Shown: positions 6,218 through 62,864 of the stretch, piece after piece
How the letters are laid out: the number at the start of each line of letters is the position of its first letter
How positions within the stretch are numbered: position 1 is the first letter of the stretch
From: Lysobacter spongiicola DSM 21749
GTDB taxonomy: Bacteria; Pseudomonadota; Gammaproteobacteria; Xanthomonadales; Xanthomonadaceae
Assembly: GCF_900167055.1 (NCBI RefSeq)
Contig: NZ_FUXP01000001.1
Coordinates: forward strand, 806,001-870,000
Reading direction: 5' to 3'
Length of the DNA: 64,000 nt
Notes under the pieces: model-generated
Told to the model about the DNA's origin: nothing
Database searches by the model: none
The model's input: only the letters and a program-made list of their open reading frames with translations
Translations under genes and position numbers: made by a program

Positions 6218-7269
6218 GTTCCGTCGGTGACGGTTTTTCTTCGGGGTTGCTGGCCTGGTTCGACCACAGCGGGCGCCACGACCTGCCATGGCAGCACCCG
6301 CGCACCCCGTACCGGGTCTGGCTGTCGGAGATCATGCTGCAGCAGACCCAGGTCCGCACCGCCGCCCCCTACTTCGAGCGCTTCGTCGCCGCCCTGCCCG
6401 ATGTCCCCGCGCTGGCGGGTGCGCCGCAGGAGCAGGTACTGGCGCTGTGGTCGGGGCTTGGCTACTACGCGCGCGCCCGGAACCTGCATGCCGCCGCGCA
6501 GCGTTGCGTCGAGATACACGACGGCGATCTCCCGCGGGACCTGGACGCACTGGTCGCCCTGCCCGGCATCGGCCGCAGCACCGCTGCCGCGATCCTCGCC
6601 CAGGCCTGGGGCGACCGCCACGCCATCCTCGATGGCAACGTCAAGCGCGTGCTCGCCCGCTACCACGGCATCGAAGGCTGGCCGGGCAGACCGGCGGTGG
6701 AAAAACAGCTCTGGGCCCTGGCGGAAAACCACCTGCCCCACGAGCGCCTGGCCGACTACACCCAGGCGCAGATGGACCTCGGGGCCACCCTCTGCACCCG
6801 CGCCAACCCCGCCTGCGTGCTGTGTCCCCTGCGAGACGGCTGCGTCGCACGCATCGAGGGACGCACCGGCGAGCTGCCAACGGCGCGGCCGACACGCAGC
6901 GTGCCCCAAAGGCAGGCCGATGTGCTCTGGCTGGAAGACGCCGACGGCCGCGTGCTGCTCCAGCAGCGCCCGCCCAGCGGCATCTGGGCGTCGCTCTGGA
7001 GCCTGCCGCAGGCGGAAGACGATGCGGGGGCGACGTTGTGGCTGGACACGCACATCGACAGCCACGCCCGGCAGGCGGAGCCCGAGCCCCTGCAGCCGGT
7101 CGACCACGCCTTCACCCACTTCAAGTTGCAGTTGCGCCCGCGCCGGCTGCGTGGCGTCGAACTGCGGCCCGCCGTGCGCGACAATGGCGCCCTGCGCTGG
7201 GTGACGCGCGAAGACATGCAGTCGCTCGGCATCCCCGCCCCGATTCGCCGGCTGCTGGAAGCCGGCTGA
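6214..7269 (+). CDS. mutY: A/G-specific adenine DNA glycosylase
   Basis: Removes adenine mispaired with 8-oxoguanine. The 351 residues carry the helix-hairpin-helix [12 protein letters not shown], catalytic Glu in [10 protein letters not shown], catalytic Asp in [10 protein letters not shown], and the C-x6-C-x2-C-x5-C iron-sulfur loop ([17 protein letters not shown]). The C-terminal third is NUDIX-like and recognises 8-oxoG. Start overlaps the previous gene by 4 bp; an Fe(II)-trafficking gene follows, the conserved mutY-yggX pairing. Confidence 0.97.
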
Positions 7270-7289
7270 TCCACCATCGAAGGCCCGCC

Positions 7290-7562
7290 ATGCCCCGTTC
7301 CGTCCATTGCGAATACGAGAAGCGCGAAACCGAAGGGCTGGATTTCGTCCCCTGGCCCGGCGAAGCCGGCAAACGCGTCTATGCCCACATCGGCAAGCAG
7401 GCCTGGGCGGCATGGCTGGCGCACCAGACCATGCTCATCAACGAAAACCGCCTGTCACCGATGAACCCCGAGCACCGCAAGTTCCTCGAACAGCAGATGA
7501 TCAAGTTCCTGTTCGAGGGCGGCGCCGACAAGGTCGCAGGTTACGTTCCGCCGGAAACCTGA
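7290..7562 (+). CDS. yggX: Probable Fe(2+)-trafficking protein YggX
   Basis: Ninety-residue protein that buffers intracellular Fe(II) and protects iron-sulfur clusters from oxidation. It shows the single N-terminal cysteine ([16 protein letters not shown]) and the family blocks [27 protein letters not shown] and [13 protein letters not shown]. It sits 20 bp after mutY, as in many gammaproteobacteria. Its last 22 bp overlap the convergent DUF6491-like gene. Confidence 0.96.
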
Positions 7563-52577: not shown

Positions 52578-55500
52578 CTACGGAGCCCCGGCAGAAGCGT
52601 GAGGCGCCTGCCTCCTAAGCGCTTCATACAACTGCGCCGGCCCGAGCAAAATATCCCGCAGCCCATCGCGCACCCGCTCCGATCCCAGCGCCTGACTGCT
52701 CATGGTCGAGTGCGCCTCGAACGCATCCATGATCGCGTTCATCAGCGCATCCTTGAGGTCCGGGGAGTTCGCAAACTGCTCCTTGCTGTTGCTCATTGCC
52801 TGTTCGACCAGTGTCTGGTTCTCCAGCAGCTTTCCCTTCAGTACGCCGTTGACGTACAGCAGCTGGTCATCGTCGGTCAGCTGTCCCTCGAACAGTCCAT
52901 TGACCTTCTCGATGATCTCGGCGAGGTACGCCTGCTGTTTCTCCTGCACCCGGCCGCTGCCCACCGCATCCAACGGAGGCAACTTGTACGTGCCGTCTGC
53001 GTTGAGGCTGAGCGGCTGCTTGCCCCCACTGCGCAGCGTGTGATGGGTCAGCACCACCTTCGAGAGATCGACAGTGTCGCGTTCGCGGCCGAACTCCAGC
53101 AGCGGCAACAGGCGTGTGTAGAACAGGGACCGCTTCTCGATATCGGTGTTGCCGTAGTCGAACATCTGCGACAGGAAGGCATACAGCCGGTTGAACGACG
53201 CCATGTCGCCCTTGAACAGGATCAGCGCCTCCAGTTCATCCTTCGCCGCTTTTTCCGACTCGCCGTCGTCGGCCCCGATAGCCGCCACGCGGGCCTGCTG
53301 CAATGCCTTGTAACGCTTGAGCAGACGGTCGGCAACAGGATGGATGGCGGCCACCAGCTGGGCCTGTGTCGCCCGCGGGTCCATCTCCACCTTCGCCAGC
53401 CGCTCCACCTCGAAGTCATCGTAGTGGCCGGCGGCGTCGAGCTTGGCCCGCAGGTCGAAGATGAGGTTGGGGTCCGTGGTGGCTTCCAGTTCGGCCGTCT
53501 CGTAGTACGTCTTGAACGCTTTCAGCACGTCACCGGCGTCGTTGACGAAGTCCAGCACGTAGGTGCTCTTCTTCCCGGGGTGGGCGCGGTTGAGGCGCGA
53601 AAGCGTCTGCACCGCCTGGATGCCGCCGAGCTTCTTGTCCACGTACATGCCGCACAGCAGCGGCTGGTCAAAGCCGGTCTGGAACTTGTTCGCCACCAGC
53701 AGCAGGTGGAACTCCGGCTGCGCGAAGGCCTCGCGGATGTCGCGGTTCTTCAGGCCGGGGTTGAGCAGCTTGCTGGTCTCGGTAACCGGCTCCGGGAAGC
53801 TCTCGGGATCACTCACCTCACCGGAGAAAGCCACCAGCACGCCCAGCGGATAGTCCCGCCGTTCGATGTACTCACGGATGGCCTTCTGCCAGCGCACCGC
53901 TTCCTGCCGGGATGACACCACCACCATCGCCTTGGCCTTTCCGTCCAGCAGCGGCTGCACGTTCTCGCGGTAGTGCTCCACCACGATCTGCACCTTGGCC
54001 GCGATGTTGTACGGGTGCAGGCGGACCCACTGCATGATTCCCTTCATCGCGGTGCTGCGCTCGACCTGCGTGTGGTCGATCTCCTTGCCATCGTGGACAA
54101 GGCGGAAGGCCAGGTCGTACGGCGTGTAGTTGAGCAACACATCGAGGATGAATGCCTCCTCGATTGCCTGCCGCATCGAGTACACGTGGAACGGCTGCGG
54201 CAAGCCGTCCGCTCCGGTACGGCCGAACAATTCCAGCGTTTTGCCCTTGGGCGTGGCGGTGAAGGCGATATAGGTCAGCCCTGACTCGGCACTGCGCGCG
54301 CCCATCTGCGCGGCCAGCAGCGCCTCGGTGTCGATCTCGCCGCCGTCCTGCAGCTCCGCCCATTCCTGCGGGCTCAGCAGCTGCTTGAGTTTGGCCGCCG
54401 CCTGCCCGGTCTGCGAGCTGTGGGCCTCGTCGGCAATCACCGCGAAACGCTTGCCCTCGGTGGCCGCCAGCTCCTGCACCGCCTGCAGCGCGAAGGGGAA
54501 CGTCTGGATGGTGCAGACGATGATCTTCTTGCCATCCTTCAGCGCCTGCCCCAGCTGCGCGCTCTTGCTGCCGCTCTCGCCGGTGATGGTGGCCACCACG
54601 CCGGTGGTGCGCTCAAAGTCGAAGATCGCCTCCTGCAGCTGGCTGTCCAGCACGTTGCGGTCAGACACCACCAGCACGCTGTCGAACACTTTCTTGTTGT
54701 CGCGGTGCAGGTCAGCGAGGAAGTGCGCCGTCCATGCGATCGAGTTGGTCTTGCCCGAGCCGGCCGAGTGCTGGATGAGGTAGCGCTGCCCAGCGCCGTG
54801 CTCGTGCACGTCGGCCACCAGCTTCCGCGTGGCATCCAGCTGGTGGTAGCGCGGGAAGATCACCGCCTGCAGCTGCTTCTTGTCGTCGCGCTTGCCGATC
54901 AGGTAGCGGCCGAGGATTTCCAGCCAGCTGTCGCGCTCCCACACCTCTTCCCACAGGTAGCGAGTGGCAAATCCGGCCGGGTCCGGCGCATTGCCCGCCC
55001 CGCCGGCGTTGCCACGGTTGAACGGCAGGAAGCGCGTGTGCTCGCCAGCCAGCCGCGTGGTCATCATCACCTCCGCCTGGCTGACCGCGAAATGCACCAG
55101 CGCGCCGCCCGGGAACGCCAGCAGCGGTTCGCGCTGCCTGCCCTTGGGGTGAGGGTGCCGGTCGAACCGATACTGATCCACTGCGTCACCCACGCTCTGG
55201 GTGAAGTCCGATTTCAGTTCCGCGGTCGCCACCGCAATGCCGTTGACGAACAAGACCAGGTCCAGGCAATCATTGGGGCGGTTGGGCGAGTGCTTGACCT
55301 GCCGCACCACCCGCAGGCGGTTGGCGGCATAGTGCTGCTGGGTCACCGGGTTCATCCCCAGCGCTGGCTTGAACTGCACCAGCGACAGCGGCTGCTTGAG
55401 CCCCAGCATCTCCACGCCCCGGCGCAGCACGTCGAGCGTGCCGCGATCGTCCAGGTTCTTGCGGATGCGGTCGGCCAGGCGCTCGCCCAGCTGAGGCCCG

Positions 55501-55685
55501 TGAGTCTTCAGCAGCCGTTGCCAGCTGTCCGGTTGGGTGGCCTCGACCCACGCCAGCAGATCCGGCAGGAACACCCCGTGCTTACGGTCGTAGTGGGCCG
55601 CGTCGCCCTCTGCGTACAGCCAGCCATGGGCGGCGAGGTGCGCGCAGATCTCGCGCTCGAAGTGGTGCTCCTGGTGCAGGTTCAT
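52578..55685 (-). CDS. hsdR: Type I restriction enzyme, subunit R
   Basis: 1035 residues. N-terminal PD-(E/D)xK nuclease about 1-230 (CLDLVLFVNGIAVATAELKS). Superfamily 2 translocase with Walker A IQHSAGSGKTNSI, DEAH-type box VIADEAHSSQTG, TFTATPKG-like FTATPKGKT and the later VANKFQTGFDQPL, TLSRLNRAHPGKKST. The C-terminal helical part binds the methylase core. Start at 55685 (MNLHQEHHF) overlaps the HEPN-like gene by 4 bp. HsdM and HsdS lie about 3.6 to 6.8 kb away at the other end of the island. Confidence 0.96.
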   Translation of the reverse strand: MNLHQEHHFEREICAHLAAHGWLYAEGDAAHYDRKHGVFLPDLLAWVEATQPDSWQRLLKTHGPQLGERLADRIRKNLDDRGTLDVLRRGVEMLGLKQPLSLVQFKPALGMNPVTQQHYAANRLRVVRQVKHSPNRPNDCLDLVLFVNGIAVATAELKSDFTQSVGDAVDQYRFDRHPHPKGRQREPLLAFPGGALVHFAVSQAEVMMTTRLAGEHTRFLPFNRGNAGGAGNAPDPAGFATRYLWEEVWERDSWLEILGRYLIGKRDDKKQLQAVIFPRYHQLDATRKLVADVHEHGAGQRYLIQHSAGSGKTNSIAWTAHFLADLHRDNKKVFDSVLVVSDRNVLDSQLQEAIFDFERTTGVVATITGESGSKSAQLGQALKDGKKIIVCTIQTFPFALQAVQELAATEGKRFAVIADEAHSSQTGQAAAKLKQLLSPQEWAELQDGGEIDTEALLAAQMGARSAESGLTYIAFTATPKGKTLELFGRTGADGLPQPFHVYSMRQAIEEAFILDVLLNYTPYDLAFRLVHDGKEIDHTQVERSTAMKGIMQWVRLHPYNIAAKVQIVVEHYRENVQPLLDGKAKAMVVVSSRQEAVRWQKAIREYIERRDYPLGVLVAFSGEVSDPESFPEPVTETSKLLNPGLKNRDIREAFAQPEFHLLLVANKFQTGFDQPLLCGMYVDKKLGGIQAVQTLSRLNRAHPGKKSTYVLDFVNDAGDVLKAFKTYYETAELEATTDPNLIFDLRAKLDAAGHYDDFEVERLAKVEMDPRATQAQLVAAIHPVADRLLKRYKALQQARVAAIGADDGESEKAAKDELEALILFKGDMASFNRLYAFLSQMFDYGNTDIEKRSLFYTRLLPLLEFGRERDTVDLSKVVLTHHTLRSGGKQPLSLNADGTYKLPPLDAVGSGRVQEKQQAYLAEIIEKVNGLFEGQLTDDDQLLYVNGVLKGKLLENQTLVEQAMSNSKEQFANSPDLKDALMNAIMDAFEAHSTMSSQALGSERVRDGLRDILLGPAQLYEALRRQAPHASAGAP

Positions 55686-56131
55686 ACGTTCCCCATCAGC
55701 TCGGGGCGATGCTCTCGCAACCACCGCTTGGTGTGTGCCAACAGTTTCGCCGCCTCGTCCAGGCATGCGATCAGTGTAGGCCCGGATACCGGATCGCCCT
55801 CGTAATCGGAGATGTTGCGCTGGCGACGCAAAGCGTCGAGCACGACAACGTCATCCTTCGGCACTCCCATGGTGTGCGTCAGGCACTGGATCGCCGTCTG
55901 ATGATGACCCGGCTGGCTGGTGGACGTGCGATACCCGTTGGCCCACAAGCCCAACATGGCGCACTGCATCACGCACTTGTAGGCGACATCGAAGCGGCTA
56001 TCCGGGCTGATCGCCTCGACCTGCGCATCGGCAAGGTTGCGTTCCGCCGCCGCCAACAACTTCCCTATTGCCGCTGCGTCAGCGGAGTGGGCCTGCAGTT
56101 GTCGGATTGCCAACAAGTTCTGCAACGTCAT
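55682..56131 (-). CDS. HEPN-like protein, partner of the MNT protein
   Basis: 149 residues, entirely helical. The pattern (FDVAYKCVMQCAMLGLWANGYR, HHQTAIQCLTHTMG, LDALRRQRNISDYEGDP, CLDEAAKLLAHTKRWLREHRP) is that of SAV_6107/HEPN proteins. The usual catalytic RN-x-x-H of HEPN RNases is here RNISDY, with no histidine in place, so RNase activity is doubtful. It starts 53 bp inside the MNT gene and overlaps hsdR by 4 bp, so the three are translated as a unit. May be the HepT-like half of an MntA/HepT toxin-antitoxin pair. Confidence 0.8.
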   Translation of the reverse strand: MTLQNLLAIRQLQAHSADAAAIGKLLAAAERNLADAQVEAISPDSRFDVAYKCVMQCAMLGLWANGYRTSTSQPGHHQTAIQCLTHTMGVPKDDVVVLDALRRQRNISDYEGDPVSGPTLIACLDEAAKLLAHTKRWLREHRPELMGNV

Positions 56132-56708
56132 CCTTGTTCCCCTTTACGAAGAGTTTCGGGTTATCCAGCAGCCCGCGGGCAAAGGCATCCCCAGAAGCTG
56201 CCCGCGCTTGAAAGTCGGCCACCGGATACAGCACCGGATTGATGTCCCGCCGCAGGGCCTGCTGGATAGGGTTCAAAGCCTTGACGAGTTCGACGAAACC
56301 AAGATCCCCAAGCACCAGCAAATCGATATCGCTGCCTTCGCCCTCGGTGCCCTGCGCGAGCGAGCCGAACACCCAGGCAACATGGATGCCTGCATCCAGT
56401 GGCGCCAGTGCCTCCTGCAATGCCGGCACCACTCCATGCGTCTTGCGGAAGATCGCCGCCAGGTCATTGAACAGCAGGCTGTCCCGGTTGGCCCGGTAAT
56501 GCACCTGGTTGCCCTGTTCGGTGCGTTGGAGCAATCCCGATTCGGTGAGCTTGTCGAGCTCCCGTCCAAGAGTGCCCGGGTGACTGCCAGTCAGGCGGGC
56601 GAGCTCTCGCAGGTGGAAACTGGTGTCCGGGCGCAGCAACAGCACGGCAAGCACGCGTTGGCGGGTGATGCCGAAAAGAAGATCCATCAACTGGCGGGTG
56701 TTGCTCAT
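56079..56708 (-). CDS. Winged-helix / MNT nucleotidyltransferase fusion
   Basis: 209 residues. Residues 1-75 are a winged helix-turn-helix (LLFGITRQRVLAVLLLRPD, LRELARLTGSHPGTLGRELDKL, GLLQRTEQGNQVHYRAN). Residues 110-160 are a minimal nucleotidyltransferase: GS at 115-116, DxD at 127-129 (GEGSDIDLL) and third Asp155 (RRDINPVL). MntA-type antitoxins AMPylate HepT toxins; the added DNA-binding domain suggests the protein also represses its own promoter. A perfect inverted repeat lies just upstream. Start at 56708 is chosen as the first ATG of the domain; the frame is open 27 codons further up. Confidence 0.9.
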   Translation of the reverse strand: MSNTRQLMDLLFGITRQRVLAVLLLRPDTSFHLRELARLTGSHPGTLGRELDKLTESGLLQRTEQGNQVHYRANRDSLLFNDLAAIFRKTHGVVPALQEALAPLDAGIHVAWVFGSLAQGTEGEGSDIDLLVLGDLGFVELVKALNPIQQALRRDINPVLYPVADFQARAASGDAFARGLLDNPKLFVKGNKDDVAELVGNPTTAGPLR

Positions 56709-56718
56709 ATGGCTACGA

Positions 56719-56739
56719 ATGTTGCCTATAAAGCAACAT
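56719..56739 (-). promoter_or_regulatory. Palindromic operator/promoter before the MNT gene
   Basis: ATGTTGC-N7-GCAACAT, perfect 7-bp arms 11 bp upstream of the MNT start. The centre TTTATAG resembles a -10 element on the minus strand, so a bound repressor would block it. A further GTTGC half-site lies just beyond. This promoter would drive the MNT, HEPN-like and hsdR genes. Confidence 0.65.
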
Positions 56740-56800
56740 GTCCGCAACACCCGACATCGCAAGTACCTGCCATTGGAGCTCGCAGGCATCGGCTCAAGTA

Positions 56801-57637
56801 CTAAGCGTAATGCTCACGCCGGTGACAGTTGGGACACAGCGCAATCGCATTGGCTACGGTGTCCTCGCCTCCATCCGCGAGTCGTATCCTGTGATGAACC
56901 TCGAGATACGGACTGTGATCTGTCCTGCGGAAAAAGGGAGCAGACGCAAAACAGCTCTCGCATTTTCCTGCGGCACGAAGCAAGACCTCCGCGATCACGT
57001 CTGCGTTTCTGACGAAGGCTACAGTTGCGACGCTTATCTTCCGGGGGAGCTTCGGCGCGAGCATGAGGCGCTGTCTGCGCTGCGCCGGCGTATCAGTAAG
57101 GGCAGCCTGCAGTCGTCGATCGAGCTGCTCTTGAAGAGCCTCGGAACCTTCAGGATCGATCGGCGGTGCCACCACAATTTCCAGAAAGAAGGATCCATCG
57201 GATCTTTGGACGGCGGTCCTGCTCCGCCCTTCCCAGCCCTGGACGGTAAGGTCGGCGTAGGCCGTGTGCACAGGCAGCATGGAGAAGCGCTTCGCGGGTC
57301 GCGGCGGCTTGCCGCGCTCGATATCAAAGCGCCGATGCGCGGCAGACGTCAGGGAGTAGGTCGTACCTTCGCGTTCGACTCCCAGGACCTTGAAGACGCC
57401 ATAGACACGATCCCGGACGATCACAACCACAACCTTGATCGGCGTCTTATCGGGATGATGATAGTCATACGCGGACCCCGTGGGCTGCGTGTAGGTGTAA
57501 TCCTCCACAGTACCGCCAGTAGCGAGTAGCTTCTTGACGCTCTCACTGGAGTGTCGAAGCAACATGATGTCTTCCGGCGGAACGTCAAGCTCCCTCGCTA
57601 CGAGTTCTGCCAATGACGTGCAGCCTGTGTGCTTCAT
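56801..57637 (-). CDS. HNH endonuclease of the defence island
   Basis: 278 residues. C-terminal HNH nuclease: KCESCFASAPFF, LEVHHRIRLADGG, ALCPNCHRREH (zinc-stabilised CxxC...CxxC form). The N-terminal 200 residues include a beta-rich region (TEEDYTYTQPTGSAY-like VEDYTYTQPTGSAYDYHHP, VVVVIVRDRVYGVFKVLGV, GTTYSLTSAAHRRFD) that may recognise modified DNA, similar in layout to Sco-McrA-like restriction proteins. It overlaps the GIY-YIG gene by 4 bp. Probably a modification-dependent restriction enzyme or an accessory nuclease of the type I locus. Confidence 0.82.
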   Translation of the reverse strand: MKHTGCTSLAELVARELDVPPEDIMLLRHSSESVKKLLATGGTVEDYTYTQPTGSAYDYHHPDKTPIKVVVVIVRDRVYGVFKVLGVEREGTTYSLTSAAHRRFDIERGKPPRPAKRFSMLPVHTAYADLTVQGWEGRSRTAVQRSDGSFFLEIVVAPPIDPEGSEALQEQLDRRLQAALTDTPAQRRQRLMLAPKLPRKISVATVAFVRNADVIAEVLLRAAGKCESCFASAPFFRRTDHSPYLEVHHRIRLADGGEDTVANAIALCPNCHRREHYA

Positions 57638-58497
57638 GTCTCTGCCACCGCCGTTTTACGCTCGCCGAGCGTCCGGCCGTTGCCATCCTTCCACTCAATC
57701 CAACCGTTCGCGGTGCGTCCCGTCACGCATGCGGCCGCACCGCTGGGCGATTGAAACAGGTGATCCCGTGCAAAGCGGATGCGGTCGCCTTCAATGACCA
57801 GTACACCTTGCTCGACCAGCTGCTCGCGCACTCGGTGATAGCCGTGGTTCTGGAACGAGGGCACGGTCTCGAGACGACCACTTGACCCAGCCAACACCAC
57901 GAACCCTTCCTCGGTATAGAGGCCTCTCGCGTCCGCGTCCGAGGCACGGCACACGAAGACCTCGTCGCCTCGCTGCACAACCTCAGCGCGCGCCAAAGGC
58001 TCGAACACCGGGAAGCCCAGCGTGGCCAGCAGCGTGCGCACGGTGGCGTGTATCTCGCTGCAGTCGGCTTCCATCGGCGCAGGGGTATAGGGGCGGCCAC
58101 CGGCGTTGCCGTTGTCCATCACGTAGCGCCCAGCCGACTGCGCCTGCTGGATGGACAGCCACTCCAGGTAGCTCGCATGGGTATTGGTAAGGCTGTTGGT
58201 CAGCGACACCGCGATGAGGGCGCGGTTCCAGAAATCTTTGCCCGAGTTGTGCTGCGACAGGCGGGTCTTGAGCGAGCCGGTCTGGCCGATATAGCAGCGC
58301 TGGGCGCCGCCGTCCTCATCCTCGCCGAACAGGAAGTACACGCCGACCTGTTCGGCCTCCGGCATCTTCAGGAAGTCGCTCAGCAGACTGCGCGGCACCT
58401 CGATGACGCGGACGATGCGCGTGGTGATCTCGGCGATGCGGATGCCCTGCGGGTCGCCGGCGGGGAGGAAGATCTGTATGGTTTGCGGATGGGGCAT
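57634..58497 (-). CDS. GIY-YIG nuclease with DUF4357
   Basis: 287 residues. N-terminal GIY-YIG domain: VGVYFLFG near 52, CYIGQTGSLKTRLSQH near 68, and catalytic Glu112 (ASYLEWLSI). C-terminal DUF4357 (QSPSGAAACVTGRTANGWIEW). This architecture is a recurrent passenger of type I restriction loci. It may cut branched or foreign DNA; target unknown. Fifteen bases after the 252-residue gene. Confidence 0.92.
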   Translation of the reverse strand: MPHPQTIQIFLPAGDPQGIRIAEITTRIVRVIEVPRSLLSDFLKMPEAEQVGVYFLFGEDEDGGAQRCYIGQTGSLKTRLSQHNSGKDFWNRALIAVSLTNSLTNTHASYLEWLSIQQAQSAGRYVMDNGNAGGRPYTPAPMEADCSEIHATVRTLLATLGFPVFEPLARAEVVQRGDEVFVCRASDADARGLYTEEGFVVLAGSSGRLETVPSFQNHGYHRVREQLVEQGVLVIEGDRIRFARDHLFQSPSGAAACVTGRTANGWIEWKDGNGRTLGERKTAVAET

Positions 58498-58512
58498 GGG
58501 CGTTCCCTGCGG

Positions 58513-59271
58513 TCAGTCGTGCGCGTCGTGGCCGCGCATGTGGATGGCGTGCCTGCCGGTGAACCAGCGGCCGGTGACGCGGCTTCGGCGGTATTCACCC
58601 AGATAGCCGGTGCGGCGATCAAACACCTCGACGCGCCATGAGCGGTCGCCCAGCGGCGGCAGGCGGGCTTCGAGCGCGCGCAGGTCGGACAGCCAGTGGT
58701 CCAACCGCTCCGTGACCAGCACAGCGCGGCGCTGTTCCGGGATCAGGTGCACCAACGGATTCCCCGACGGCTCGGCGGTGGGTGGGCCGTGATGGATAGA
58801 CAGGTGCAGCGGATCGCTGCCGCCGTAGAACGGGTCGTGGTGGTGGACCTGACCGCGCCGGGCGAAGCTGCGCCACCAGTCCTCGTCCGGCCAGCGAGAA
58901 TGCCGGGCGAGCCAGGTAGGCGAGGGGCCGCCGCCGATCAAGGCGGACTGCGGCAACTCGTAGCCCACACCCAGCGGCAACCAGGACCACGCGGCGTAGT
59001 AGTCGATGAGGTCATCGGCGCCCCACACCCGTTGCACGAGCGCCAGCACGGGTGAATCGCCCACCGGCTGGCCGGCGGCGTACCACCACGCAAGGCCGCG
59101 GCCAACATCGGCCCACCCCAGCAGGCTGGACAGCGTGTAGTGCAGCGCGCCCCAATGGGCGCAGGCCTGTTCGAGTGGTCCGGTTGTCGGCCGCGGGATC
59201 GCGCTTTCAAGCCTGGGGTCGGCCAGTGCGCGGAACACTGCGAGGACATCGCGGAGCCAAGGATCGGTCAC
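58513..59271 (-). CDS. Protein of unknown function inside the type I restriction operon
   Basis: 252 residues, no recognised domain. Rich in Trp and His (WWYAAGQPVGDSP, WSWLPLGVGYELPQ, DEDWWRSFARRGQVHHHDPFYGG). The C-terminal part has a run of strands (SWRVEVFDRRTGYLGEYRRSR) that could be a small beta-sheet fold. No signal peptide or membrane segment. It starts 4 bp inside the end of hsdS and precedes the GIY-YIG gene, so it is co-translated with the restriction machinery. It could be an inhibitor, a specificity modulator or a novel effector; nothing in the sequence decides. Confidence 0.8.
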   Translation of the reverse strand: MTDPWLRDVLAVFRALADPRLESAIPRPTTGPLEQACAHWGALHYTLSSLLGWADVGRGLAWWYAAGQPVGDSPVLALVQRVWGADDLIDYYAAWSWLPLGVGYELPQSALIGGGPSPTWLARHSRWPDEDWWRSFARRGQVHHHDPFYGGSDPLHLSIHHGPPTAEPSGNPLVHLIPEQRRAVLVTERLDHWLSDLRALEARLPPLGDRSWRVEVFDRRTGYLGEYRRSRVTGRWFTGRHAIHMRGHDAHD

Positions 59272-60608
59272 GCCGCCTCCGCCTCCACTGCACCGCGCAC
59301 GTCAATCTGGCCGGTGACGGCAGCAGCGATCAGGGCGGTTCGGCGCTCCCGCAACAAACTCGCCGACCGCTTCGCTTCTGCCCCAAGCCGATCAATCCTT
59401 GCGCATTCTGCGACCACGAAGTCACAGACGGCCCCTTGCTCAGAAAGCGGCGGCACAGCAATTTGAATCCCATTCAGCGTGCCGATGTTGATCACGTCCA
59501 TCGTCCCGCCACGACTGAGCAGCGAGAATTGCTCGAACACAATGTTGCTACGGAGGACCGTAACCAAGAACTCAGCCAGGACATGCGACCTCGAACGTAA
59601 ACGAATGAGGCGAGGATTGATCACGCCGGGATGAATCCCTTCTGGAACGATGGCGACTTTTCCGAATGTCCCAACGCAGCTGATCAAGATATCGCCTGGT
59701 GTGACGGCATACTGCTGAAGCTCTGAGTACTTCTCACTGCCGATGAAATAATCGCCCAGCGTGAAATCTGCAGGAATTACCTGCTCCTGCCCGTAGACGC
59801 GATAGCCACTAGCGCAGTACATGTCTTTCGTGAGTGCTGATCCGAACGGACCAGCCTTGGCGCTCGCGATCACCTTCTTCAACGGCCTCACCTCCCAATG
59901 CGCCGGCACCCTGCCCAGCCACGGGGTGCCGGATTCCATCATGGGGGCGTTGGCGTCGAGGCCGCGGGTGACGGCGCGGGAGATGGTGGCCTGGCGCTTT
60001 TCGGCCAGCAGTGCCAGCAGCTTTTCCTGCTCGGCGATCAGTGCGTCGATCTTGGCGGTTTCGCGGTCGAGAAAACTTGCTATCGCATGTTGCTCTCCGA
60101 ACGAAGGAGTCCACAGGGGGATGCGAGCAAGATCAGAAGCGTTGATCGCTGGATAGCTGACCCCAGTAGATCGCGCGATGACCTGGTGAACGAATGCTTC
60201 GCATTGAAGTCCGTACTTTAAATACCCGGAGTACTGGCCCGATTTTGGGCGCACCACCGCAAAACCTGTGGAGGCGATGAGGTTCGGCGCTGGCGAAACC
60301 ACCGGGGCAATCGCCTTGAGATACGTTCGAACTGTCGATACCAGCACGTCACCATCGCGAACAATACGCCGTGCCCGCGACGGTGCATTGGAAAACGTCA
60401 GGGCTTCGCTGCGTTCAATCCCTCCGGTGAGGCTCACGCTTCCGATATCGACGTACTCGATCTCTAGCTCCGCGTCGGTGGATTCCGGGAGCGTCTCATC
60501 GTTCAACGTTGCCAGCATGCTGATCGGGGTGGCCGCCCAGTGGGATGGGATATCTCCTATCCATTCAACACCACTGTCCTTGTACTCCGGATACCTCGGC
60601 AGACTCAT
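59268..60608 (-). CDS. hsdS: Type I restriction-modification specificity subunit S
   Basis: 446 residues. Two target-recognition domains: TRD1 about 1-190 (GVEWIGDIPSHW at the start) and TRD2 about 230-420 (TPWLGRVPAHWEVRPLK). Each ends in a conserved helical spacer (LDRETAKIDALIAEQEKLLALLAEKR and VAECARIDRLGAEAKRSASLLRERR). Determines the DNA sequence recognised by HsdM and HsdR. Start at 60608 (MSLPRYPEYKDSG) overlaps hsdM by 4 bp. Confidence 0.96.
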   Translation of the reverse strand: MSLPRYPEYKDSGVEWIGDIPSHWAATPISMLATLNDETLPESTDAELEIEYVDIGSVSLTGGIERSEALTFSNAPSRARRIVRDGDVLVSTVRTYLKAIAPVVSPAPNLIASTGFAVVRPKSGQYSGYLKYGLQCEAFVHQVIARSTGVSYPAINASDLARIPLWTPSFGEQHAIASFLDRETAKIDALIAEQEKLLALLAEKRQATISRAVTRGLDANAPMMESGTPWLGRVPAHWEVRPLKKVIASAKAGPFGSALTKDMYCASGYRVYGQEQVIPADFTLGDYFIGSEKYSELQQYAVTPGDILISCVGTFGKVAIVPEGIHPGVINPRLIRLRSRSHVLAEFLVTVLRSNIVFEQFSLLSRGGTMDVINIGTLNGIQIAVPPLSEQGAVCDFVVAECARIDRLGAEAKRSASLLRERRTALIAAAVTGQIDVRGAVEAEAA

Positions 60609-62452
60609 TCCGCCAGCTCCCCCAGCATCCGCATGATGTTGCCGGCCACCTGCTTCAGCTCGGCGTCGATCTCCTCCAGCGCGCGCGGCGGCTCGAACAC
60701 GTAGAAGTGGCGGTTGAACGGGATCTCGTAGCCAACCTTGGTCTTGCCCTCGTCGATCCACGCATCCGGCGCGTGCGGCAGCACCTCGCGCTCGAAGTAC
60801 GCCTTGATGTCCTCGCCCAGCGGCACGTTCTCGGTATCGCGCAGGCTGCTGTCGGGCTGCGGCTGGCCCTTCTGCTTACCCTTCTCGAACTTGACGACGT
60901 TGCCGGCCTCGTCGCGCAGCGGGCGCTCGACGGTGATGGTGGTGTAGCCGAAGGCTTCGTTGTCGAAAATGCGGGAGATCGGCACGCGTTTCAGCTTGCC
61001 GCCCTCGGGCGCCACCGGCGGGCTGTCGGTGCCAGTGACGATGCGCTGCTCCACCTCGCGGCCGTCAGCATCCAGCAGGGTGACGCGCTCGGCCTCGGTG
61101 AAGTCGCCAAACAGCCGGGTGACGAGGGCAATGTCGTCCTCGCCCATCTCCTTGCGCTTGCTGCCCAGGCTCTTGCGCATCTTGCGCCAGAAGTCGCTGG
61201 CGTCGATCAGCTGCACCTGCCCGCGGCGGTCCTCGGGCTTCTTGTTGCTGACGATCCACACGTAGGTGGCGATACCGGTGTTGTAGAACATGTCGGTCGG
61301 CAGGCCGATGATGGCCTCGACCAGGTCGCTCTCCAGCAGGTAGCGGCGGATCTCGCTCTCGCCGCTGCCGGCGCCACCCGTAAACAGCGGCGAGCCGTTG
61401 AGCACGATGCCGAAGCGGCTGCCGCCCTCCCCGTTGACCACCGGCGCCATCTTCGACACCAGGTGCAGCAGGAACAGCATCGAGCCGTCTGACACGCGCG
61501 GCAGGCCGGGGCCGAAGCGGCCATCGAAGCCCTTCTGCTCGTGCTCGTCGCGCACGGCCTTCTGCACCTTCTTCCACTCCACGCCGAACGGCGGGTTGGA
61601 CAGCATGTAGTCGAACTTGCGGTGGGTGAAGCCGTCCTCGCTGAGCGTGTTGCCAGGCACGATGTTGTCCACGTCCTGCCCGCGGATCAGCATATCGGCC
61701 TTGCAGATGGCGTAGGACTCGTCGTTGAGCTCCTGCCCGTACAGGGTGAGCCGCGCTGCCGGGTTGTGCTCCATAAGGTGCTCGGCGGCCACCGACAACA
61801 TGCCGCCTGTGCCGGCCGTTGGATCGTAGATGGTGCGCACCACGGCGCTGCCGGGCGTCAGCACGTCGTCATCCTCGATGAAGATCAGGTTGACCATCAG
61901 CCGGATGACTTCACGCGGGGTGAAGTGCTCGCCGGCGGTCTCGTTGGACAGCTCGGCGAACTTGCGGATCAGCTCCTCGAACACGTGCCCCATCTGCGCG
62001 TTGTCCACGCGGTCCGGGTGCAGGTCGATGTTGGCGAACTTCTCGGTGACCAGGTACAGCAGCTTGTCCTTGGCCAGCCGCTCGACTTGGGTGTAGAAGT
62101 CGAACCGCTCAAAGATGTCTCGCGCCTCCGGCGAGAAGCCCTGCACGTAGGCGTAGAGGTTCTGGCGGATGTGGTCCTGATCGCCCAGCAGCTTGGGCAG
62201 GTCCATCGGCGAAGTGTTGTAGAAGCGCGCGTCGCCGACCATGCGTCGCAGGAACGGGTCGGGGTTGATGCCGGCGTCAGTCTTCTTCTTGAACTCGGCG
62301 AGCACCTTGTCCTTGTTGGGCGCCAGTACGCAATCCAGGCGGCGCAGCACCGTGAACGGCAGGATGAAGCGGCCGTACTCGTGCGGTTTGTAGTTGCCAC
62401 GCAGGAGGTCGGCAACCGACCAGATGAAGCTGGAGAGGGAGGTTTGGTTCAT
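60605..62452 (-). CDS. hsdM: Type I DNA methyltransferase subunit M
   Basis: 615 residues. Adenine N6-methyltransferase with the N-terminal HsdM helical domain (SSFIWSVADLLRGNYKPHEYGRFILPF), SAM-binding DPTAGTGGMLSVA and catalytic SNPPFGVEW. Start at 62452 matches the family; an ATG 11 codons earlier is also open. It is the first gene of the island; 412 bp of non-coding DNA lie upstream. Protects host DNA and forms the core of the restriction complex. Confidence 0.96.
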   Translation of the reverse strand: MNQTSLSSFIWSVADLLRGNYKPHEYGRFILPFTVLRRLDCVLAPNKDKVLAEFKKKTDAGINPDPFLRRMVGDARFYNTSPMDLPKLLGDQDHIRQNLYAYVQGFSPEARDIFERFDFYTQVERLAKDKLLYLVTEKFANIDLHPDRVDNAQMGHVFEELIRKFAELSNETAGEHFTPREVIRLMVNLIFIEDDDVLTPGSAVVRTIYDPTAGTGGMLSVAAEHLMEHNPAARLTLYGQELNDESYAICKADMLIRGQDVDNIVPGNTLSEDGFTHRKFDYMLSNPPFGVEWKKVQKAVRDEHEQKGFDGRFGPGLPRVSDGSMLFLLHLVSKMAPVVNGEGGSRFGIVLNGSPLFTGGAGSGESEIRRYLLESDLVEAIIGLPTDMFYNTGIATYVWIVSNKKPEDRRGQVQLIDASDFWRKMRKSLGSKRKEMGEDDIALVTRLFGDFTEAERVTLLDADGREVEQRIVTGTDSPPVAPEGGKLKRVPISRIFDNEAFGYTTITVERPLRDEAGNVVKFEKGKQKGQPQPDSSLRDTENVPLGEDIKAYFEREVLPHAPDAWIDEGKTKVGYEIPFNRHFYVFEPPRALEEIDAELKQVAGNIMRMLGELAE

Positions 62453-62864
62453 GGGCCCCGGGGTGATCTGGCAGACATGCTTCACGTCAGATCATACGAG
62501 GTAACTCCACCCCGTTACCCGGTCCGCCAGTCGTCCCCCGGCATGATCCGCCCGCATGAAGCTGTCAAACATCGTCGACCTCGACGTCCTGCGAATCGAG
62601 CCTATGAGGGCATTAGGCAAATTACAGAGCAGGGCTAACTTCTCTAATTCACGTCAAACCAGCCTTGCCGCCCCCGTGTTGTCAGCCTCCGGGCTCGTTA
62701 ACGACAGAACGGGCCGGGTCCCGGCATCCGCAGTACTGGCTGATCACGGCACTTCCTGCCGCAACCAGCCCGCACACCTGCCCTAAAAAGCTATGTGATG
62801 CAAGCGAAAACTCCTATACAGTTTTCGCCGCCCACCGTGCTCGGCGGGCAACAGGGGGAAATTG
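62453..62864. promoter_or_regulatory. Intergenic region, island boundary with possible operators
   Basis: 412 bases without a supported gene. The end nearest hsdM holds two symmetric elements: TGATCTG-N17-CAGATCA (62464-62494) and GGTAAC-N8-GTTACC (62500-62519), good candidates for control of hsdM. The right end holds GCGAAAAC-N9-GTTTTCGC (62804-62828) before the next gene. A 76-codon open frame at 62556-62786 has no family resemblance. The A+T content is higher than the flanking genes. Confidence 0.5.

Follow-up and report, generated by a model that had tools for sequence, protein, structure and literature searches.

We examined a 64,000-nucleotide stretch of the Lysobacter spongiicola DSM 21749 genome (contig NZ_FUXP01000001.1, positions 806,001 to 870,000; hereafter the window), in which a nucleotidyltransferase (NTase) gene and a HEPN gene are embedded in a type I restriction-modification (RM) operon, and here we describe the predicted operator of this pair and its relation to hsdR. 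On the minus strand, the genes run in the order hsdM, hsdS, a 252-residue protein, a GIY-YIG/DUF4357 protein, an HNH protein, the NTase, the HEPN protein, and hsdR (Table 1). The two adjacent genes of the pair match the PADLOC profiles PDC-M05A (NTase, E = 3e-73) and PDC-M05B (HEPN, E = 5e-69) in the shared two-gene order, and by these matches the pair is a member of the known defense-candidate family PDC-M05. PDC-M05 is distributed over both prokaryotic domains, with archaea contributing the larger share (59%) of the cases detected and its antiviral role being unconfirmed (PMC12988326), and PDC-M05A is reported to be upregulated in phage-infected Burkholderia (PMC12584637). In the accessible PDC-M05 literature, the family is listed, placed on a tree, and its transcripts are measured; the operator, the helix-to-half-site rule, the HEPN site, and the hsdR junction described below do not appear there. 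Nor was this regulatory anatomy, operator or rule, found in the titles and abstract openings of the papers listed by the literature searches, whose coverage excludes preprints and most subscription journals.

Table 1 Features of the hsd operon and of the predicted pair promoter (coordinates are positions in the window)
Feature	Coordinates	Strand	Basis or remark
hsdM	60605..62485	-	Pfam PF02384, PF12161
hsdS	59268..60605	-	Pfam PF01420
Variable cargo of the hsd operon, three genes	56801..59271	-	Profile searches
Cargo protein, 252 aa	58513..59271	-	Family not assigned by profiles
GIY-YIG/DUF4357 protein	57634..58497	-	Matches candidate PDC-S14, E 1e-110
HNH protein	56801..57637	-	Matches type IV restriction profiles, E 3e-19
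Predicted -35 hexamer TTGCGG	56742..56747	-	Family alignment, 53 loci; spacer 18 bp in the window, 17 in the family
Operator dyad 1, ATGTTGC-TTTATAG-GCAACAT	56719..56739	-	Exact inverted repeat inside the -35/-10 spacer
Predicted -10 hexamer AACATT	56718..56723	-	Family alignment, 53 loci; between the dyad centers
Operator dyad 2, GTAGCC-ATATG-AGCAAC	56700..56716	-	Centered on the A of ATG, reaching codons 2-3; tandem period in the family
wHTH-nucleotidyltransferase (PDC-M05A), 209 aa	56079..56708	-	Open reading frame, profiles, AlphaFold model
HEPN-fold partner (PDC-M05B), 149 aa	55682..56131	-	Open reading frame, PADLOC profile, AlphaFold model
hsdR	52578..55685	-	Start codon overlaps the HEPN stop (ATGA)

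Relatives of the pair were collected with HEPN queries from genome contigs (27 loci) and from three overlapping taxonomic samples, each containing the window's own genome, with HEPN matches in 46 of 369 genomes of the class, 67 of 398 of the order, and 13 of 398 of the phylum. One locus per genome was fetched, the window's included: the best 30 of 46, the best 30 of 67, and all 13, respectively. Removal of 10 duplicates from the resulting 97 loci plus the window left 88 that are unique by their upstream region; individual loci are referred to by L numbers. In the family listing, the NTase gene precedes the HEPN gene. In the window the HEPN gene starts 53 bp inside the NTase gene, just as the initial annotation had stated, and the same overlap occurs in 22 of the 88 unique loci, mostly close relatives, with other lengths elsewhere. 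A longer open reading frame start of the NTase gene, at 56789, is not conserved, and 21 unique loci including the window begin with Met-Ser-Asn, here at 56708.

The NTase protein carries a winged helix-turn-helix (wHTH) domain at approximately residues 3 to 75, with the recognition helix at residues 44 to 56, followed by the NTase domain at approximately residues 95 to 200. An N-terminal winged helix had been proposed earlier and is borne out here: ArsR/MarR-like profiles match residues ~15 to 77, all below their curated cut-offs, and the AlphaFold model (predicted local distance difference test, pLDDT, 88) contains a wHTH, with MarR/ArsR-type chains among its PDB matches. All 98 loci, counting the window and the duplicates, encode a wHTH-NTase on the HEPN strand whose match starts within the first ten profile positions. 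The same profile yields 26 matches in 25 of 45 loci with ordinary PF05168/PF01934 HEPN genes, and every one of them starts at profile position 73 or later, without the DNA-binding part. Since the winged helix is present in all 98 loci and in none of the 26 ordinary MNT matches, fusion to a DNA-binding domain characterizes the family and is no peculiarity of the window.

The inverted repeat ATGTTGC-N7-GCAACAT reported upstream of the pair is perfect, and the 3.1-Mb genome contains no second exact copy. The repeat is also the only match in the window at up to three mismatches, where shuffled sequences give 1.8, so only its exactness is notable. This repeat constitutes half of an operator, as relatives mostly carry two tandem dyads 21 bp apart. 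The tandem layout was noticed by eye before we devised a double-dyad score (six-base arms, maximum 18, period 20 to 22 bp), for which the start of L013 was adjusted by hand. Scores of 16 or more are reached by 41 of the 88 unique loci, compared to 1 of 8,800 shuffles and 0 of 1,760 other windows of those loci, and among offsets from 17 to 33 only 21 stands out (41 loci, at most 1 at any other). A threshold of 14 admits 64 of the 88 loci but also 142 of the 1,760 control windows; with this threshold, a tandem period of exactly 21 bp is seen in 62 of the 88. At p ≤ 0.02, 54 of the 88 loci pass; extending the search to 160 bp upstream, at offset 21 only, raises this to 59, because one subclass has its operator near −90 of the aligned start.

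Alignment of 53 loci gives a predicted promoter order of −35, dyad 1 in the spacer, −10, and dyad 2. The −35 element is of the TTG type (T 72%, T 51%, and G 49% at −17 to −15 from the dyad-1 center), and the −10 element is of the TAnnnT type, with A at position 2 in 94% and T at position 6 in 87%. The initial annotation had seen a −10-like TTTATAG inside the repeat. We rejected this assignment, as TTTATAG is the dyad spacer and is not conserved in the family alignment; the likely −10 hexamer is the one given in Table 1, which predicts a transcript leader of about 3 bases. Dyad 2 extends into the coding sequence, where codons 2 and 3 are AGC (Ser2) and AAC (Asn3) in 21 of 21 Met-Ser-Asn loci, loci that are related and hence not 21 independent events. 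Elsewhere in these genes AGC accounts for 58 of 173 serine codons and AAC for 44 of 92 asparagine codons. The frozen codons suggest that the DNA word, and not only the protein, is kept.

A single double operator is found in the window's own genome at up to three mismatches. Beyond the exact site, the single-dyad pattern recurs genome-wide at one place with one mismatch and three with two, and a backward control gives equally many matches; a genome-wide regulon was rejected on these grounds. The earlier proposal that a DNA-binding MNT has its own operator is thus upheld at the level of sequence by the double dyad, its register with the promoter, and its uniqueness in the genome. A further TGTTGC copy overlaps the −35 element of the window at 56742–56756 as part of an inverted repeat with 56692–56711, which brings the GTTGC-type half-sites at this promoter to four, besides the GTAGCC arm of dyad 2. 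Three loci (L039, L029, and L092) seemingly replace the 21-bp tandem with a nested operator whose outer and inner half-sites differ, as in GTTCTC ... GCTAC-AATT-GTAGC ... GAGAAC of L039.

Half-sites vary by lineage (GTTGC, GTAGC, GTTCAT, ATACCC) and follow the recognition helix. GTTGC half-sites accompany SHAGTLGREL-type helices, GTAGC half-sites mostly AG[TS]LHxEL or PGTLHREL helices, GTTCA[TC] or ATTCAT half-sites MGVATIKREL helices, and CCC-ended half-sites GRGT- or GSGAVQREL-type helices. This comparison comprises 54 of the 88 loci, those with a score under 14, an even spacer, or no NTase row being left out. Half-site distance correlates with recognition-helix distance both after controlling for NTase distance (partial Mantel r 0.48) and after controlling for the rest of the wHTH (partial r 0.36), values reached by none of 2,000 permutations in either case; some correlation with NTase distance is left given the helix (0.32). 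Among sites with G at base 4, 7 of the 8 loci that have A at base 3 carry His48, and none of the 25 that have T there does (Fisher p 2e-6, kinship not taken into account). The helix residues for the Mantel test and the His48/base-3 pairing were picked after inspection of the half-site table. L072 (GTTCTC with His48) and L040 (A3 without His48) are exceptions to the base-3 rule. The A3G4 class requires 6 changes on the NTase-domain tree, compared to a shuffled mean of 7.6. Half-sites that track the recognition helix are as expected of an autorepressor, and repression by the wHTH-NTase is supported at the sequence level by this co-variation and by the operator's position.

An hsdR N-terminus related to that of the window is found downstream of the pair in 16 of the 88 loci, many of the fetched loci being too short to judge its presence. 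In 12 of these 16 (the window and 11 relatives), the hsdR start and the HEPN stop overlap in an ATGA. Gaps of 68 to 1,442 bp separate the two genes in L013, L018, and L023, and L020 retains only a remnant. Where both hsdS and hsdR are present, the cargo between hsdS and the pair spans approximately 1 to 6 kb, and the pair and hsdR mostly stay together. This constancy and the ATGA junction indicate that NTase, HEPN, and hsdR in all likelihood form one transcription unit. The gene arrangement also suggests that hsdR probably shares the promoter of the pair and that hsdM and hsdS in all likelihood lie outside the direct reach of the operator. The suggestion that the pair would control hsdR thus finds support in the position of hsdR downstream of an operator-bearing promoter.

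The AlphaFold model of the HEPN protein (pLDDT 90) is a helical bundle with the fold of the HEPN superfamily. Its best PDB match is 2hsb (E 1e-3; template modeling score 0.79 on the target and 0.68 on the query; Z 13.8), followed by mostly other HEPN entries, among which HepT and related toxins rank lower; as unrelated helical bundles may reach Z ~13, the 2hsb match is weighed jointly with the HEPN entries that follow. Searches with the protein sequence gave no Pfam match of note, no NCBIfam match, and no credible match in PDB sequence and profile searches. In particular, PF05168 does not match the window HEPN at E ≤ 1 and has no match in its genome. Alignment of the HEPN family with hhalign against whole sets, which were cut out mechanically and in which some PF05168 rows look out of register, gives probabilities of 1.9% for PF05168 and 0.3% for PF01934; a global alignment against three PF05168 members picked by eye after the whole-set result gives 92%, which is suggestive only.

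The window HEPN motif, R102-R-Q-R105-N-I-S-D109-Y110 (RNISDYEG), lacks histidine. The initial annotation had pointed to this missing RNase-motif histidine, which proves to be general, RNxx[D/E]Y being a family trait. Across 84 of the 88 loci (four sequences of 100 residues or less were left out), the counts are R46 80, Y51 84, R105 83, Y110 83, D/E109 80, and H77 57. Two subclasses are apparent: the larger, comprising about two thirds of the sequences, has G-H-H and R102, and the other has H102 and E109. A histidine five to seven residues after R105 or position 102, as in the RX4HXY motif of Class I HepT/MntA, occurs in 0 of 84 motifs, and two sequences (L017 and L086) have one at 106, directly after R105. 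The sequence comparison indicates that the wHTH fusion and the histidine-less HEPN site mark the whole sampled family and are not peculiar to the window locus. The absence of RX4H, the conserved tyrosine, and the RxxxDY site are Class II-like. A HEPN group with D for H (HEPN-T), in which a histidine is conserved elsewhere, was described in 2013 (Anantharaman et al., PMC3710099), and HEPN/MNT pairs without RX4HXY were named 'Class II' in 2020, with no biochemistry known to those authors (Yao et al., PMC7641770). Because R and H mutants of a Legionella HEPN protein remain toxic, and another site is reported to be catalytic (PMC11586414), the missing RX4H histidine is not proof of missing RNase activity. 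In L041 the NTase match is split in two and the HEPN match is complete, and in L018, L022, and L023 the HEPN frames end or change early while the NTase is intact; these four cases may be relevant to toxicity or may be assembly errors.

The NTase is closest to MntA (PDB match 7bxo), and its score of 30.1 bits against NCBIfam MntA_antitoxin lies below the cut-off of 60. The GSX10DXD signature of type VII HepT/MntA (Class I) is retained, with G115, S116, D127, and D129 present in 83 of 83 aligned NTases (83 of the 88 loci, five sequences of 120 residues or less being left out). In 20 ordinary MNT rows, the xVDxx strand carries a further Asp; the aligned residue is N157 in the window and N in 70, S in 9, H in 3, and E in 1 of the 83. 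We take this Asp to be the third metal ligand of the Pol-beta fold. Both proteins therefore appear from their sequences to differ from the textbook MNT-HEPN pair, and neither change proves a loss of activity. The earlier idea of a MntA/HepT variant in which regulation outweighs RNA cleavage gains from the Asn-for-Asp exchange but is unproven, the absence of the histidine not being decisive.

We consider it somewhat better than an even bet, at a probability of about 0.6, that this locus encodes an autorepressed, Class II-like MNT-HEPN pair of the PDC-M05 family that also gates hsdR. In this model, the winged helix of the NTase would bind the two tandem dyads on one face of the DNA helix. Occupied dyads would cover the region from the −35/−10 spacer through the −10 box to the start codon and would thereby shut the pair's own short-leader promoter. 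As one transcript is predicted to carry NTase, HEPN, and hsdR, the restriction subunit would be limited too, leaving hsdM and hsdS untouched. The HEPN protein, of RxxxDY type, would most likely be the ligand and AMPylation substrate of the NTase and modulate its DNA binding. If the complex were then lost or sequestered, e.g., during phage infection, HEPN and hsdR would be derepressed; the reported upregulation of PDC-M05A in infected Burkholderia (PMC12584637) is in line with such derepression.

Several observations weigh against this model. The double-dyad test fails in 29 of the 88 loci, several of which show the layout by eye. The A of the −10 element is shared with the dyad-1 arm (its T is not), so that part of the −10 signal is dyad signal; the window's own hexamers are weak, and a promoter and terminator scan of the window scored neither a promoter-like nor a terminator-like site. 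Well-supported branches of the tree provide only two independent His48/base-3 contrasts, with which significance is unattainable; on average 1.7 of the 2 run in the expected direction and none runs opposite, some pairings including one without difference. One Asp found in ordinary MNTs is missing from the NTase, which speaks against ordinary AMPylation. Finally, transcription of hsdR may start within the HEPN gene or come from hsdM, and the presence of hsdR in only 16 of 88 loci, with several long loci lacking it, suggests that hsdR control is a lineage feature and not the core function of the family.

The alternative that survives best, and that we hold to be possible if short of probable, is an ordinary HEPN/MNT toxin-antitoxin (TA) pair, in which the HEPN protein is an RNase toxin acting through other residues (e.g., R46, H76/H77, R105, Y110), AMPylation neutralizes it, autoregulation is normal, and hsdR is a mere neighbor. 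The near-invariance of R46, Y51, R105, and Y110, the frequent H77, the universal GSX10DXD, the RNase activity of the Legionella protein without a catalytic RX4H (PMC11586414), and the histidine conserved elsewhere in D-type HEPN-T (PMC3710099) are all compatible with such a toxin. The HEPN protein nevertheless lacks an RNase motif, the Asp of ordinary MNTs is replaced in all 83 NTases, and the split NTase beside a full-length HEPN (L041), like the NTases with a shortened HEPN (L018, L022, and L023), would speak against it unless these are assembly errors. These same replacements, family-wide, would suit a pure transcription switch, in which degenerate catalytic domains act as a sensor, HEPN serves as co-repressor or anti-repressor, and the pair controls a defense operon in the manner of RptR, as would the widespread operator of constant layout and the retention of the NTase before hsdR where HEPN is shortened (L018 and L023). 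We find this doubtful: selection would not maintain GS and DxD (invariant in 83 of 83) in an inactive enzyme, unless the protein needs to bind nucleotide, and R105 and Y110 of HEPN are nearly invariant as well.

In AbiE, the wHTH antitoxin AbiEi and the nucleotidyltransferase toxin AbiEii are separate proteins of an autorepressed operon with two inverted repeats and no known HEPN partner. The window likewise combines a wHTH and a nucleotidyltransferase within one operon that is predicted to be autorepressed, but here the two are fused and accompanied by a HEPN partner. Reversed roles as in AbiE/MenAT, with the NTase as toxin and HEPN as antidote, would make this protein AbiEi and AbiEii in one, and a weak AbiEi profile match (E 0.006) points the same way; its affinity to MntA, its GSX10DXD signature, and the unusual prospect of a self-repressing toxin render this improbable, and gene order cannot decide between toxin and antidote roles. 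It is very improbable that the inverted repeat serves another regulator, arose by chance, or acts as an RNA element, given a period conserved in 59 of 88 loci, half-sites that track the NTase protein's own recognition helix, a second dyad kept as DNA within codons, and no terminator-like site.

Among characterized systems, HepT/MntA (type VII, Class I) shares a MntA-like NTase with GSX10DXD, a HEPN-fold partner, and overlapping genes, and the closest parallel in parts is MntA of Shewanella. This MNT antitoxin binds its own promoter without a recognizable DNA-binding domain (PMC4621449), whereas the window pair has an explicit one fused to the MNT, predicted tandem 21-bp operators, Asn in place of one Asp, and no RX4HXY. 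The pair resembles Class II HEPN/MNT (PF05168, D for H) in its RxxxDY site, its fold match to 2hsb, and its profile match to the three hand-picked members, and differs in lacking a PF05168 match and in carrying a wHTH on the MNT. The closest parallel in logic is RptR, a 9-kDa four-helix protein whose type I RM island likewise contains a TA pair and which represses this island through TAGCTA sites, in repeats that overlap the −10 box (PMC12255303). Shared features are a repressor encoded within the island, a putative one in the window, and repeats overlapping the −10 box, which is a predicted one here; RptR is the first gene of its island with hsdM directly downstream, whereas the putative controller in the window directly precedes hsdR. 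RptR-type control itself was rejected, TAGCTA being absent from the 64-kb window. A 2009 TA survey discusses MNT-HEPN as a possible TA pair and, in its accessible part, speaks of HEPN-RHH fusions and not of wHTH-MNT (PMC2701414).

A further-reaching version, which we regard as speculative and unlikely as it stands, is that PDC-M05 forms a widespread transcription switch of TA descent: both enzymes would have departed from their canonical sites, the MNT would have acquired a winged helix whose recognition code is readable (e.g., His48-A3), and the complex would sense phage attack and let go of the 21-bp tandem operator, raising the restriction subunit alone; if so, operators would be predictable from protein sequence across PDC-M05. 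With the operator and the helix-to-half-site rule, it would become testable whether Class II-like HEPN/MNT pairs are TA systems, how the restriction subunit of a type I system is regulated separately from the methylase, and what derepresses defense operons during infection.

A mobile origin of the pair found no strong support: the searches returned one weak match among 50,697 phage records, three viral contigs at 34% identity, 13 matches among 72,556 plasmid records, and zero DNA matches in E. coli genomes. The plasmid-encoded NTase relatives occur in Legionella, Comamonas, Cupriavidus, Bradyrhizobium, and others. The pair has other neighbors in several long loci: GmrSD and a type I methylase precede it in L008, in L029 it lies between a type I HsdM upstream and a C-terminal portion of another HsdR downstream, and a Schlafen-type helicase lies downstream in L024. 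In the window, the PDC-S14 protein and the HNH protein both sit between hsdS and the pair, and the corresponding cargo region of L006, from the soil relative Dyella solisilvae, encodes at 6437–7360 a PDC-S18 protein (E 1e-147; DUF5655, NucS_C-like). The 252-residue cargo protein has no Pfam, NCBIfam, or PADLOC matches and is a possible unnamed defense gene; relatives of it are present in the hsd operons of L018, at 70% identity, and of L007, at 59% within the first 99 residues.

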